A stretch of 55,634 nucleotides of DNA, taken from the NCBI GenBank assembly GCA_014361205.1, contig JACIVZ010000003.1, positions 1 to 55,634 of the forward strand. Reading direction: 5' to 3'. Every line of letters starts with the position of its first letter. Position 1 is the stretch's first letter. The notes beneath the pieces are model-generated. The model searched no databases. It had not been told where the DNA came from and worked only from the letters and a program-made list of their open reading frames with translations. Source of the DNA: Methanomethylovorans sp. GTDB taxonomy: Archaea; Halobacteriota; Methanosarcinia; Methanosarcinales; Methanosarcinaceae. A program made the position numbers and the translations under genes. Of the stretch, positions 171 to 45,351 are shown piece by piece.

Positions 171-551
171 ATGTGTTTTTGGTGGCAGAGAATACTCAGG
201 GGATTTATCCTTTTTAAATTAATAGGTCAAAATAAAATTAAAAGTAGGTTTTCTACAAAGCCTGAACTTTCTAAGGGTGAAAAAAAAGAAAAAGGTTTCA
301 ATGAACTTAAACGTAAGTTGAAAGATATAACTCCGAAGACACTTTCAGGCAGGCTAAAGGAACTGGAGCAAGAGGGCTTAATACAGAAGATTATCGATGA
401 TTCTGTATTTCCTGTACGCTGTGAGTATTCTCTTACTCCCAGTGGAGAGGACTTTATAGTTATAATACGAGCTCTCAAGTTATGGGGCCTTAAATGGAAG
501 TTTAGTAACAAAGTATGTGAAAGTTCAGTTTGCAGGCTTTGTGAACTTTAA
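171..551 (+). CDS. HxlR-type winged-helix regulator, possibly decayed
   Basis: The C-terminal two thirds reads as an HxlR-family DNA-binding domain: FNELKRKL, then ITPKTLSGRLKELEQEGL (recognition helix region), then the PVRCEYSLTPSG wing and a closing LKLWGLKW helix. Such proteins are small dimeric repressors or activators, often of redox or detoxification genes. The N-terminus is abnormal. The expected Cys-Pro and GGKW-type opening is absent, the first 20 residues look like shifted frame, and about 15 lysine/glutamate-rich residues are inserted just before FNELKR. A second frame at about 162-231 carries a short family-like string (CVFGGREY), which suggests a frameshift. No ribosome binding site precedes the ATG. 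It may be a pseudogene; what it regulated cannot be told from the neighbours. Confidence 0.55.
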   Translation: MCFWWQRILRGFILFKLIGQNKIKSRFSTKPELSKGEKKEKGFNELKRKLKDITPKTLSGRLKELEQEGLIQKIIDDSVFPVRCEYSLTPSGEDFIVIIRALKLWGLKWKFSNKVCESSVCRLCEL

Positions 552-788
552 GCAAAGTTATTTGTATCCCAACTTTGATGATCAAAAGCAATTGATATAT
601 TCCTTGATATTATTCCTGATTTATATAAATTTATTGAAACTGCCAAGTAGATTATCCTTACAAAAGTAGGAATTTTGATAAAATCAGATAAATAACATTT
701 GTATTGGCATTTCAAGCTAAAAAAGCTGAATTTAATAGTTATTTTACAGAAACTAAAATTTATATCTGAAATAAAAGAATACAAAAAT

Positions 789-40698: not shown

Positions 40699-41157
40699 TT
40701 ATCGTGTAATAAGCATTTCTGCTGTTTCCGGCTTGTATTTCCAGTCAGCTGGAAGCACTTTGTTATTTTGATAGTACTTCACAAGTCTTCTGATTTTAGA
40801 TTCAACATTATGTAAGGAGCGTAGGTTGTGGTAATCTGAATGGTTGTTAGCCACATGTTTTCTCATGCCTATTGCTTTCACAATAAGATTGTGCAGGTCT
40901 TCTGGGAGAGGTGGTTTCTGATCATTTTCCTTAAGTATAGTTGTTATTTTTTTTCCAGTAACTAGCTTCACATCTGGCATTCCATATTTGTCCCTGAGGA
41001 CCATACCAATAAGACTTGTACTCATACCTTGCTTCCACATATCCAGCACAAGTTTTGTTATTTCCTCTGTATTCATGGTACACCAGACGGGAGCTTCAGA
41101 GCGCATTGGCCTTTTAGAACCGGATTTACCTTTTCTCCGGGTATGCATTTTTGCCAT
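40699..41157 (-). CDS. rps15: 30S ribosomal protein S15 (uS15)
   Basis: The 152-residue archaeal uS15 binds 16S rRNA in the central domain. The N-terminal extension [17 protein letters not shown] is basic, as in archaea and eukaryotes. The core has [20 protein letters not shown] and [19 protein letters not shown]. Full length. AAGGAGGAATTTA precedes the ATG. It is followed by a strong hairpin terminator and stands as its own unit. Confidence 0.96.
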
Positions 41158-41332: not shown

Positions 41333-42496
41333 TTACCATATTATAAGGGAAATCTCAGCTCCTCCAGGGGTTACCCGTCTGAAAATAGAACTCATTTGCC
41401 TATCCCTAAGCTCCAGCAAAATACTACTGTCATTAGTTTGCATCATTATCTCAACTGTAGAGTTAATTTCTTCTGAAAGTTCGTCTGAAAGATAGGAATA
41501 AACCTCCTTTGTATACTCCTGTCTCAGCTGATTCTTTACTAACGCAATATTAATTTCTGCAAAGTTTGTGCTATTATTTATTGAATTGTAATTAGTACCA
41601 TCCTTCAACTTAGTATTGTTCATCATATGAGTTTCCATTCTTTTTTCAATGTTATCATCTGAAATAGATCCCATCAAAAAATCTCCCAGTGTCAAAGTGT
41701 TTTCCTCTCTATAACTTATCTGTTCAAGATATTCTTCCGGATAATAAAAATCTATGATCGATGCCGATGAACAAGAGGCTGCCAGTAACATACACTGATT
41801 GAAGAATGATCTTAAATCCTGTTCTTTACTTGAAGAATTAACTGCATGATCAAAAGCAAAATCATCTGCCACATAAACCAAGTCTAATGCGCTTATAGAA
41901 CAGATATATGGAACAGATATTAATGTACTCTGCCTGATAGCCGTTACAGGAGGAGCTTCACCCAACGTAAGTTGACTTAATGGTTCACATCCTGGAACTG
42001 GTTGCCAGGTTGCTTCAAACCTGTAGTCATATCTGCCACCAATTTTTTTGTTAAGGTATTCTTCAATTATTTTTTCTGTCGCTTCTGAATAATTTTTGCT
42101 TAAAGGATGAAGATAACTATATGTTCCATTCTCTTCAGTATGAAGCGAAAAGAGCATATATTCGGCAATTATGTCCGCATAAGTCCTGAAAGTGTGTTCT
42201 CTTACCAATACTGCATTATTTTTATACATAGAGCATTCAGGGAACATAGTAAAAATATTTTCATATATTGTAGGTTCAATTGTGTATTCAAAGCCCTCTA
42301 TTCGACTATTCAGCAGAGATTGAAGCAATTTTTCATCAAACTTGTAACCTGCAACATTCTGCACTGCAGCATTTTGTGCAGACGGAAGCATGACAGGCAT
42401 CAGCAATGCTGCTGAAATGGATATCATTAAAAGAAAAATCATAACATCGATTGTTGAAGAAATAGCTTTAATATCGGAGAATATTTGCTTTTGCAT
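41333..42496 (-). CDS. Single-pass pilin-like surface protein D
   Basis: The 387-residue protein has one N-terminal membrane helix (STIDVMIFLLMISISAALLM, about residues 14-33) after a short cytoplasmic start, and a long extracellular part with several Asn-X-Ser/Thr sites and scattered cysteines. The helix type resembles the haloarchaeal DUF7284-like proteins found with type IV pilus-like genes (from memory, unverified). It is the last and largest of four such proteins downstream of hisS. No enzymatic motif is visible. Its start follows 38 bases after the preceding gene. Confidence 0.6.
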   Translation of the reverse strand: MQKQIFSDIKAISSTIDVMIFLLMISISAALLMPVMLPSAQNAAVQNVAGYKFDEKLLQSLLNSRIEGFEYTIEPTIYENIFTMFPECSMYKNNAVLVREHTFRTYADIIAEYMLFSLHTEENGTYSYLHPLSKNYSEATEKIIEEYLNKKIGGRYDYRFEATWQPVPGCEPLSQLTLGEAPPVTAIRQSTLISVPYICSISALDLVYVADDFAFDHAVNSSSKEQDLRSFFNQCMLLAASCSSASIIDFYYPEEYLEQISYREENTLTLGDFLMGSISDDNIEKRMETHMMNNTKLKDGTNYNSINNSTNFAEINIALVKNQLRQEYTKEVYSYLSDELSEEINSTVEIMMQTNDSSILLELRDRQMSSIFRRVTPGGAEISLIIW

Positions 42497-42534
42497 TTGT
42501 TTTTATCTCCCAGATTTCTTATCCGTTAAGTATT

Positions 42535-43044
42535 TCATTGATCTTTAAACAGTTTCACTGTCAATGTACCTGGGACCTGCTGTATCGGATTAAGCTCAAT
42601 TGTAACAGGCACACTAGCAGCTATATATGCTACGGACGAACGAGACGATAAAGTATTACGTATCTGCCACATGTATACTCCATCATCTGTTGAAATATCC
42701 ACCTGAAATTCAATGCTTGGAGAAAAACTATCAAAGAAAAGATTCAAATTTTGTTTATCAACCTGCGGATTACTCAATTCATCTAATTTTTCAGCAGATA
42801 TGAGGTCCATTCTACTTCCCTGAAGCATATGAGAATGAACAATACTCTGTGCAATAAGAGATGCTTCCTCATAATTCTCCAGAGCAAACGCACTATTTTC
42901 ATGGGCAAGATAAGTTTTTGATACAATACAGGCAAAAACCACAAAGCCCATTACCAATAATGCTGTTGCAAAAATGTCATTCTGCGGTTCTACTATAGCT
43001 CTATTATCTTTGGTAAACAAGTACATATCCAATCTTATCGACAT
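42535..43044 (-). CDS. Single-pass pilin-like surface protein C
   Basis: The 169-residue protein begins with about 22 mostly polar residues, then a helix DIFATALLVMGFVVFACIVS (about 23-42), then an extracytoplasmic domain rich in Ser and hydrophobic strands. No enzyme motif. ATG 43044 overlaps the end of the upstream gene by 41 bases; ATG 43026 would reduce this to 23. The layout, small size and neighbours suggest a minor pilin or pseudopilin-like component. Confidence 0.6.
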   Translation of the reverse strand: MSIRLDMYLFTKDNRAIVEPQNDIFATALLVMGFVVFACIVSKTYLAHENSAFALENYEEASLIAQSIVHSHMLQGSRMDLISAEKLDELSNPQVDKQNLNLFFDSFSPSIEFQVDISTDDGVYMWQIRNTLSSRSSVAYIAASVPVTIELNPIQQVPGTLTVKLFKDQ

Positions 43045-43603
43045 TTATATCATCAGTAAAATATATAAATGTTTTTTGGATGTATATTGGATTACTTGTA
43101 TTAAAACTTACTTCTTTTGTTATGGAAGTCAGATATTTTATTATATCTGCATAATCTGCTCTTATAGGTTCATTTATACTTCCGTTTGAACCATAATTCG
43201 ATTTTAGGTTATTACTAAGAGTCGAAGGAGAATATGGATATACTCTAAATGCTGGTGCTTTTGCTGCAATAATCGATTTCCCATCGATATTTGCATTGAT
43301 TATAACATATTCACAGGAAATAAGAACTTCCACTGTTTTGTACTGAAAATGAGGAAGGTGATTAAAATCAATTGCATAAGTTACGCAAGTTTCCTCTGAA
43401 CTGCTACCAACATTATCTATATAATATAACAATTCCGCAGATAAACGATCAAGTTCCTTTTTGTAACTAATTTCCTCCATATTTAATGCAAAATGATATA
43501 TAGCAGCAATAACCACCACACTTGCAAGTATAAGTGCAGTTTTTGACAGAAAAAAATCTATCCAGCCTCTTTCATCTTGAAAAAAAGTTGATCTGATTAA
43601 CAT
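43004..43603 (-). CDS. Single-pass pilin-like surface protein B
   Basis: The 199-residue protein starts MLIRSTFFQDERGWIDFF and continues into a helix, LSKTALILASVVVIAAIYHF (about 19-38). The ERG-W-then-hydrophobic arrangement is like the cleavage region of archaeal class III prepilins, though this is only suggestive. The rest is extracytoplasmic, with N-X-S/T sites, two cysteines and strand-rich sequence. It lies 21 bases after gene A and overlaps gene C. No known enzyme motif is present. Confidence 0.6.
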   Translation of the reverse strand: MLIRSTFFQDERGWIDFFLSKTALILASVVVIAAIYHFALNMEEISYKKELDRLSAELLYYIDNVGSSSEETCVTYAIDFNHLPHFQYKTVEVLISCEYVIINANIDGKSIIAAKAPAFRVYPYSPSTLSNNLKSNYGSNGSINEPIRADYADIIKYLTSITKEVSFNTSNPIYIQKTFIYFTDDINVDKIGYVLVYQR

Positions 43604-43624
43604 TTTGATTTTTACCTTTTTTAA

Positions 43625-44113
43625 TTATTCAAATACTCTGACAAATAATATACCTTCAGAGGTGCTGACACCAGTCGTCAGATATAGTTTATGCTTGCCG
43701 GCACCAATAACTGCCACGCCGTCCATAAACTCATTGCTGTAAGAAGCTTTGGATTCCCTTATTGTATATTTCCCCTCATATTCCAGAAAATAGTTCTTTG
43801 CATCATGAGGCCAGGAATTTTCATGTCCTGGTAAGGCTCCCAGAATTACTGTACAGCCCTTAGGAATATTTACATCAATAGTAAGATTACTGCCTGGACC
43901 GCTATTATATAATAGTGAAGCTGTAGCATCCATTCTTGATATCTCTGATTCAAGACTGCTCATTTTCATTTGATGAAGAAAACCTGAAGTTGCTGTTGCC
44001 AACATTAGAATAATCACTATCATAAGAATGGAAGAAACTACAAACCTCAAGGGTAAAGAAGATGCAGCAACTTGATTCTTTATAAAATTCTGATAAGTAT
44101 CCCTTATTTTCAC
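43625..44113 (-). CDS. Single-pass pilin-like surface protein A
   Basis: The 162-residue protein starts with GTG at 44113, overlapping the hisS stop (GTGA). It has a basic opening, [14 protein letters not shown], then a strong helix [20 protein letters not shown] (about 20-39), and an extracytoplasmic domain with beta-strand character ([28 protein letters not shown]). No enzyme motif. It is the first of four similar-architecture proteins and is translationally coupled to hisS. Confidence 0.65.
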
Positions 44114-45351
44114 TTATTTTCACCAGTCAGTTTTACAATAATTTCATTCAGTGTAAGGGACTCTTGTCTGCCGCTATTCATATCTTTTAATGTGAAAAGA
44201 CCCTCTGAAATCTCTCTTTCACCCAATATAAGTGCATAACGGGCGCCTATATTGTTGGCATATGACAGTTGAGATTTGAAATTTCTGTTCATAATATCCA
44301 GATATACGGGAACATATTCCCTTAGCTTGCAGGCAATAGAAATGGCATTGAGGCGAGTTCTGTCTGTAGTGACAATAACAACTGTGTTTTGCGGTTCAGG
44401 TTCTATGTTATATATTTCCATAATCCTGTCAAAGCCAATCCCAAAACCAGTAGATGGAACATCTCCTCCGCCAAAAAGTTGGATGAGTTTATATGAACCA
44501 CCTCCACAGACCTGTTTCTGTGCACCAAGACCTTCAGCATAGACTTCAAAAACCATACCTGTATAATAATCAAGACCTCTGGCTATTCCAAAATCAATTG
44601 TATAATTGATTCCATATGCATCTAAGAGAGTAAGTATTTTCTGGAAAGTATCCAGTTCAGGAATGGAACCCAGAAGTTTGTAGGCTTTTGGAAGAGCTTC
44701 CTTTCCTGTAAGGGAAATCAGCTCAAGTAGTTGCATACGCAGATTTATAGGTGCTTTTATTTCCTCTAAGTAATCGTCCAGTCCTTTATCGTCTTTTTTA
44801 TCTACAAGGCGCATTATTTTGCTCTGTTGTTCAGTATTCAGAGAACTAAGGACGTGACGAATGATACCCAGATATCCGACATGCAAATCACATCGGATGC
44901 CTGCAATCTTAAGCATGGTAATTGCCAATGCTATTACCTCTGCATCAGCATCCGGGCTTTCGGACCCAATTAGCTCCACCCCGAACTGCCAGAACTCTCT
45001 GAATCTACCTTTCTGAGGTCTTTCATACCTAAAGCAATTTTCAAAATAGAATAGTTTCAATGGGCGTGGAAAGGCCTGCATTTCATTTACAAACATTCGC
45101 ATCACAGGCGCGGTCAGTTCAGGACGTAACGTCATCTCACGATTTCCTTTATCTGTGAAATTGTATAGTTCACCCACAATTCCTTCACCAGATTTCATTG
45201 TGAAAAGTTCAAGGTGTTCAAAGGTAGGCGTGACTACCTCCTGATAGCCCCATCTGCTAACTACCTGTCTAAACTGATATTCCAGATATCGCCGGCGAGT
45301 CATATCATGTGGGAGGAAATCTCTTGTTCCTCTTGGTCTTTGTATCGTCAT
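44110..45351 (-). CDS. hisS: Histidyl-tRNA synthetase
   Basis: The 413-residue class II synthetase charges tRNA-His. It has [16 protein letters not shown] near the start, motif 2 [18 protein letters not shown] near 117, the histidine A loop [15 protein letters not shown] near 254, and motif 3 [14 protein letters not shown] near 299, then the anticodon-binding domain. Full length for archaea. The stop overlaps the next gene by four bases. It has its own promoter region, divergent from the TrpB2 gene, in the gap 45352-45560. Confidence 0.96.

Follow-up and report, generated by a model that had tools for sequence, protein, structure and literature searches.

The window analyzed here is a stretch of 55,634 nucleotides (nt) of contig JACIVZ010000003.1 from the archaeon Methanomethylovorans sp. 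(assembly GCA_014361205.1). It carries a block of four adjacent genes, denoted A to D, which probably encode pilin-type subunits of an archaeal type IV pilus-like machine whose other parts are dispersed over the genome. The block and its immediate neighbours are as follows:

Gene A, 44113-43625, minus strand: 162 amino acids, GTG start; distant DUF7311 homologue with a predicted pilin layout (helix, then beta domain)
Gene B, 43603-43004, minus strand: 199 amino acids; pilin-like, positional counterpart of DUF7283
Gene C, 43044-42535, minus strand: 169 amino acids as listed, likely start at 43026; distant DUF7285 homologue, pilin-like
Gene D, 42496-41333, minus strand: 387 amino acids, the largest of the four; assigned to the DUF7284 family
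hisS, 44110..45351, minus strand: upstream neighbour, named by eye from its translation (context)
Ribosomal S15-like gene, 40699..41157, minus strand: downstream neighbour, named by eye (context)

These four open reading frames (ORFs), the 4 nt shared by the GTG start of A and the stop codon of hisS, and the close packing of the genes had all been described correctly in an original prediction made from the sequence alone: A and B are separated by 21 nt, the overlap of B with C (from the listed starts) is 41 nt, and C and D lie 38 nt apart. Because the C proteins of relatives begin at the residue matching an internal ATG at 43026, this codon is probably the true start of C, and the first six listed residues are probably untranslated. 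N-X-S/T sites, which had been ascribed to the larger proteins, are indeed found in D (eight) and B (two), with one more in A and none in C. Also as predicted, the block encodes no ATPase, TadC platform protein or prepilin peptidase; all of these are encoded elsewhere in the genome.

The block is conserved in related methanogens. Among 149 genomes of the class, the gene C profile is present in 69 and the DUF7284 profile in 65, at one place in each (54 above the cut-off). Of the 20 regions chosen and fetched from these 65 genomes (16 from the same family and four from other families of the order), 19 retain the order A-B-C-D, including all 16 of the same family, which bears out the expected synteny; only C and D were detected in the exception (L055). 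Clustering of A-D is far beyond chance. Among the 16 same-family regions, 15 have hisS as the nearest upstream gene, at no more than about 0.4 kb; in L051 the separation is about 7.8 kb, and none of the four regions from other families has hisS adjoining the block. In a scan of named genomes (28 loci from Methanomethylovorans, Methanococcoides, Methanolobus, an ANME-3 bin and others), 27 loci show both hisS and A; the distance between them is from -74 to +41 nt in 26 loci and 258 nt in L200, which has A split into two pieces. The named loci overlap the class-genome set (for example, L176 is the same genome as L040), so that the two sets are not independent. The proposed functional coupling to hisS is not supported, since the same genes occur without an adjoining hisS in L055-L058, L102, L103 and L105, besides the 7.8-kb separation in L051; the link is positional. 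The S15-like gene follows D in most same-family loci, with L047 and L052 as exceptions.

Pfam places D in DUF7284 (PF23955), with 38.5 bits against a gathering cut-off of 27, and all 24 members of the D alignment match this family at E ≤ 0.01. The window copy of C scores 13.6 bits against DUF7285, below the gathering cut-off of 27, and is not among the 15 of 27 C alignment members that match PF23956 (DUF7285) at E ≤ 0.01. For A, the window protein has no Pfam match to DUF7311, and three of 27 alignment members match this family weakly (best E 0.013). No Pfam match was found for B in the window scan and no convincing family across its 27 alignment members, and the NCBIfam scan of the window returned nothing convincing for A-D.

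A phylum-wide search detected DUF7284 in 60 of 246 genomes; among 20 regions fetched from this search, 16 (L087-L101 and L104) are of a haloarchaeal type, a label that, like Methanosarcina-type and Methanolobus-type, was derived from named relatives, from the control rows and from the character of the sequences. All 16 haloarchaeal-type loci encode DUF7283, DUF7285, DUF7284 and DUF7286 on one strand in this order, preceded in 15 by TadA-TadC. DUF7311 is likewise present in all 16, just upstream of TadA wherever TadA is present, and the coiled-coil protein DUF7310 in 15. The L094 region lacks TadA-TadC and DUF7310 and has DUF7311 directly before DUF7283, which is the methanogen A-B-C-D-E order, E being the DUF7286 protein. 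Profile-profile comparison (hhalign) with broadened methanogen alignments paired A with haloarchaeal-type DUF7311 (95.1%, E 3.2e-8), C with DUF7285 (96.6%, E 5.4e-10) and D with DUF7284 (98.7%, E 4.5e-16), all off-diagonal pairs plus B-DUF7283 reaching at most 4.3%; narrower alignments gave lower values (A 35.5%, C 88.4%, D 97.7%). DUF7283 was rejected as a counterpart of A (0.4%). B sits where DUF7283 does, namely before C, and in L094 DUF7283 comes directly after DUF7311; the correspondence is by position only. Thus, families that the original prediction had left unnamed emerge for three of the four proteins, with D as a member of DUF7284 and A and C as distant homologues of DUF7311 and DUF7285, respectively. 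Given the profile diagonal and the gene order, the methanogen A-B-C-D equals the haloarchaeal order minus the TadA-TadC pair between A and B, and the block is the methanogen form of part of the haloarchaeal-type operon. The region of the DUF7284 operon in L095 also contains an immunoglobulin-like protein (189-686, minus strand; DUF7382 above the cut-off) with an N-terminus like that of A.

The genome under study encodes seven TadA-type ATPases and one distant ATPase domain. One of these ATPases, encoded on contig C154 and thus in trans to A-D (T2SSE, 77.9 bits against a cut-off of 24.9), is the best match in this genome for the ATPases of the haloarchaeal-type clusters (E 1e-64 to 1e-84, versus 1e-22 to 1e-30 for the next paralogue). 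Of the TadC proteins in the comparison set, that of C154 is the only one matched by those of the clusters (E down to 1.8e-70); the one haloarchaeal-type TadC tested scored 21.8 bits against T2SSF, below the cut-off of 25.2. In an ATPase tree of 46 rows, of which 31 have an unusual letter make-up, the C154 ATPase, three orthologues from other genomes and 13 cluster ATPases form one clade (100/100), apart from 29 others that include archaellum-type ATPases and further haloarchaeal-type paralogues. For this tree, 14 of the 44 search matches had no locus and L163 yielded no ORF; L168 was removed manually because of its long branch, and the tree further excludes L171, L170 (identical in protein to L087) and two of the 15 cluster ATPases (L089 and L101). 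The N-terminal extension of the ATPase contains 4-10 cysteines in 16 of the 17 clade members, versus 0-3 in the 29 others, one clade member (L164) having been mis-measured. Collectively, these comparisons identify the C154 TadA-TadC pair as the likely orthologue of the haloarchaeal-type cluster motor, which lends good support to the suggestion that the block borrows machinery encoded elsewhere and answers the genome search for an ATPase and TadC that had been proposed for it.

There are no visible pilin genes on the 9.3-kb contig C154. The two-contig genome G049, of the same genus, has D (1,845,568), TadC (1,981,424) and E (1,140,569) on a single contig; the parts are therefore truly dispersed, and this is not an artefact of the draft genome under study. 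A single A24 prepilin peptidase, which has the archaeal C-terminal domain, was found in the genome, on contig C24 (Peptidase_A24 and Arc_PepC_II, both above cut-off). The operon on contig C87 was rejected as the cognate motor, its ATPase being grouped in the tree with other paralogues; with its MinD-like, TadA and two TadC-like genes (named by eye; L059, 3388-8057) and no pilin genes beside them, it is a second orphan motor. A further operon, on contig C111 (L062, 8196-15477, minus strand), encodes a PBP_like_2 phosphate-type binding protein with a pilin-like signal, two permeases, TadA and two TadC (T2SSF) and is bindosome-like, that is, an ATP-binding cassette importer joined to pilus assembly genes (Pst naming by eye).

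DUF7286, the last member of the haloarchaeal-type series, is represented in this genome by E, a 1338-residue ORF on contig C46 with a pilin-like N-terminus and a C-terminal part conserved across families. About 12 nt behind it lies F, which belongs to the sarcinarray family (TIGR04209; 158.6 bits, cut-off 45), has an N-terminal signal sequence (by eye) and matches a family of surface proteins. In three loci from another family (L102, L103 and L105), A-B-C-D is followed by an ORF of 984-1061 residues and then by a small ORF; profiles confirmed DUF7286 in the E of L102 and sarcinarray in the F of L102 and L105. In L046, a 1362-residue E (DUF7286, 132 bits) is divergent to hisS-A-B-C-D and has a sarcinarray gene behind it. 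The occurrence of these genes at one locus in some relatives and dispersed in others argues for a single system. F directly follows the C-terminus of E in 39 of 41 ORFs of the fetched regions; two share the same F.

The distribution over the 149 class genomes points the same way. C is found in 69 genomes, D in 65, E in 64, F in 67 and a C154-type TadC in 72; the C/D block, E, F and TadC are all present in 59, none of them in 69, and 21 genomes have partial sets, these counts and the associated Fisher values ignoring relatedness. The partial sets comprise F alone (six genomes, one genus), C/D with TadC (six), C/D, E and TadC (three), TadC alone (three), and, in one genome each, C/D alone, E-F-TadC and C/D-E-F. 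C154-type TadC and C occur together in 67 genomes and apart in seven. In the control rows, the genetically tractable relative Methanosarcina acetivorans matches the profiles for DUF7284, DUF7286 and sarcinarray. Where TadC is broken by stops (G061, G065 and G105), C, E and F were not found, G061 retaining a shortened D, and two genomes in which C is broken (G028) or split (G131) are both without E and F, the former also without TadC. The six genomes of one genus with sarcinarray (G006, G020, G022, G047, G101 and G145; frames of about 222-243 residues, with a stop in G101), in which C, D, E and TadC were not found, indicate that this family also has another role.

The pilin character of the subunits is suggested by the junction ahead of the membrane helix. 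The motif [DN]xx[GA] stands just before the helix in all four window proteins and in E of the same genome, as well as in 104 of 105 homologues (A 27/27, B 27/27, C 27/27, D 23/24) and 13 of 14 E proteins, the fourteenth being without a membrane stretch; in the background set of 160 further ORFs that have a membrane stretch at the N-terminus, from which eight E pieces and known or likely pilins had been excluded manually, 13 carry it. This motif was widened after a stricter one, and both the pattern and the set of homologues were influenced by earlier inspection. A class III signal (a charged residue followed by G/A), for which a check had been proposed, fits the junctions of B (RG), C (RA) and D (KA) but not that of A (VA). 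In B, DERG and then the WIDF junction precede the helix, and likely pilins of the same genome (by eye), for instance in L064, have the same kind of junction. In the AlphaFold2 model of A (pLDDT, the model's confidence score, 84.3), one unbroken helix spans residues 3-71 and seven strands come after it, which is the layout of a type IV pilin. The model of D is mixed, with a large helical part and no clear pilin head (mean pLDDT 67.9). Hence, of the strand-rich domains attributed to all four proteins, that of A is retained in its model and that of D is not. Fold searches gave at best Z 7.2 for D, to helical bundles, and Z 5.0 for A, over 44 residues of helix; the absence of pilins from these lists is not evidence of a new fold.

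Homology (for A, C and D), gene order, co-occurrence, motor phylogeny, the E-F pairing and the junction motif together make it likely that A-D are pilin-type subunits, probably minor ones forming the tip or base, of an archaeal type IV pilus-like machine that is dispersed over the genome and is of the kind known as subclade 4F. The ancestral operon would have had the order DUF7310-DUF7311(A)-TadA-TadC-DUF7283(B?)-DUF7285(C)-DUF7284(D)-DUF7286(E); in the family to which this genome belongs, TadA-TadC would have been removed from between A and B, and E and its partner F relocated too. The membrane-anchored subunits would be cut by the single PibD-like peptidase and assembled into a filament on the TadC platform of C154, with the TadA ATPase of the same contig as motor. 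A-D would carry E outward as a tip protein, a role suggested by its pilin-like N-terminus and by the conservation of its C-terminal part across families, and F would be the secreted surface partner contacting the C-terminus of E, so that the machine may serve in adhesion or cell recognition.

Several observations weigh against this interpretation. Co-inheritance is imperfect: ten genomes have C or D without E (seven) or with E but without F (three); G038 has an intact TadC and none of the other parts, G140 has C/D, E and F while TadC was not found, and two genomes with all other parts present have only 204 residues of TadC (G108) or TadC in two pieces on two contigs (G146). As to family assignments, the B-DUF7283 comparison is not significant (4.3%, E 0.0094), A matches Pfam Pilin_N weakly (13.6 bits against a cut-off of 25.2), and the C154 TadC matches no Pfam family at E ≤ 0.1. 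The stricter first motif was found in 21 of 27 A, 13 of 27 B, 27 of 27 C, 10 of 24 D and one of 14 E proteins, versus six of 159 in the background. A has an extra N-terminal stretch, and haloarchaeal-type DUF7311 starts right at the helix, without the junction motif, which makes processing of A doubtful; A may not be processed at all. Finally, the models of A and D found no counterpart among solved pilins, the best Foldseek matches to solved structures having E 0.30 (A) and 0.24 (D), and when A, B and C were compared as profiles with solved chains, only weak, unrelated rows appeared.

The pairing of E with F acquires a further aspect in relatives. Methanosarcina-like genomes contain, after a full E, extra modules consisting of an E C-terminus and F without a pilin-like start. 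Such modules, downstream of or apart from the full DUF7286 gene and including some broken E pieces, were observed in L125-L128, L130, L133, L138, L140, L142, L143 and L134-L136. In G128, assembled as a single contig, two full E genes share 97-100% identity along some 1200 residues, falling to 81% and 63% in the final part; between L126 and L142 the last E block is the most alike (96%, versus 74-95% elsewhere), and L124 and L131, with one E and one F each, show no drop in identity at the end of E. Across 18 modules (one of the 19, the fused or frameshifted ORF L140_10845, is excluded), the E segment behind an NVW motif, with a mean identity of 63%, tracks F (r 0.52; 0 of 5000 permutations), versus r 0.16 (p 0.11) with the segment before the motif; F correlates more weakly with that preceding segment (r 0.34, p 0.001; partial 0.31, p 0.011). 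In seven of the 18, the last segment and F have the same nearest neighbour (permutation mean 1.05, maximum 7). When all 19 modules are used and the halves are cut differently, r is 0.35 between the last half and F, 0.33 between the first half and F, and 0.73 between the two halves. This covariation fits, without proving, cassette exchange by recombination, and the E C-terminus and F look like exchangeable cassettes in some relatives; the genome under study has one E-F pair and no array, so that the pattern pertains to relatives only. We offer, tentatively and as somewhat less likely than not, a recognition machine with an exchangeable head: A-D and the body of E would be constant, the last 100-190 residues of E and F would form a paired specificity cassette, with sarcinarray as the cognate partner of the variable tip, and in Methanosarcina-like relatives a downstream reserve would be copied into the expressed gene by homologous recombination. 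Such a system would be an archaeal counterpart of pilin antigenic variation or polymorphic tip modules.

The same pairing could be read differently. A-D might be pseudopilins of a short, type II secretion-like pseudopilus that makes no long filament and exports or displays E and F, possibly in contact-dependent rivalry, the E C-terminus and F being a toxin-immunity-like pair. The position of F right behind the E C-terminus and its covariation with the last E segment, which does not track the segment before it, agree with this scenario, which overlaps the pilus-like interpretation as a variant of its last step. However, the E C-termini remain homologous, unlike most toxin domains, F has a signal sequence and a match to surface proteins, and this genome has a single E-F pair; we consider the scenario rather unlikely. 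Less likely still, an adhesive filament is built from A-D as ordinary structural pilins with any of the seven TadA motors, the C154 link being historical only. In Haloferax, PilB3-C3 is reported to complement a pilB1-C1 deletion, and TadC and the block are apart in G038 and G140; nonetheless, the joint presence of C154-type TadC and C in 67 genomes and the missing C, E and F where this TadC is broken speak against this view. That A-D form a non-filament membrane complex (a receptor or envelope assembly factor) with the ancestry of a pilus operon but not its mechanism is improbable: the subunits match no solved structure and the D model has no clear pilin head, but the operon with TadA-TadC is stable in 15 of 16 loci, the junction motif resembles that of likely pilins in the same genome, and A has the helix-beta layout.

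The pilus-like machine is ordinary in kind, having already been outlined as subclade 4F, and new in content. In the main-text sections of Makarova, Koonin and Albers (2016; PMC4858521) considered here, subclade 4F is characterized by a cysteine-rich N-terminal extension of the ATPase, 'especially prominent in methanomicrobia', with a halobacterial coiled-coil partner, arCOG07564, and the major pilin arCOG02981. As compared with that description, the machine shares the cysteine-rich extension of the ATPase, the occurrence in haloarchaeal-type genomes and methanogens, a motor separable from the pilins and, on the haloarchaeal side, a coiled-coil partner, DUF7310 being the candidate counterpart of arCOG07564; it differs in that the subunit block is here linked to hisS, apart from the motor. 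It thus fits subclade 4F as judged by these traits. The same sections contain no link of 4F to DUF7284-7286, DUF7311 or sarcinarray, the Pfam names being later.

The haloarchaeal-type operon is alike in that A, C, D, E and the motor all have homologues in it and in that the order is the same minus the motor, as in L094; the differences are the N-terminal stretch of A, absent from DUF7311, and sarcinarray, the profile of which has no match in the Haloferax volcanii control. Bacteria have minor-pilin sets with a giant tip protein, such as FimU-PilV-PilW-PilX with PilY1. Four small subunits, one of them larger with extra helices, plus one protein of more than 1000 residues recall this arrangement by analogy only, the likeness coming from neither a sequence nor a fold match; unlike in the bacterial set, E has its own pilin-like N-terminus.

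What is new is the hisS-linked block split from its motor, the named relatives for three of the four proteins, and the link to DUF7286 and sarcinarray. We found no open-access paper naming DUF7283-7286 or DUF7311, and sarcinarray (IPR026476) appears only as a table row in one paper, subscription literature lying outside the search. The findings suggest a joint role for at least six families of unknown function (DUF7283, DUF7284, DUF7285, DUF7286, DUF7311 and sarcinarray) and present a case of an operon that has been pulled apart while its parts are still co-inherited. They also point to a testable diversity-generating surface system in methanogens, in which cell-cell and cell-surface recognition is little understood.

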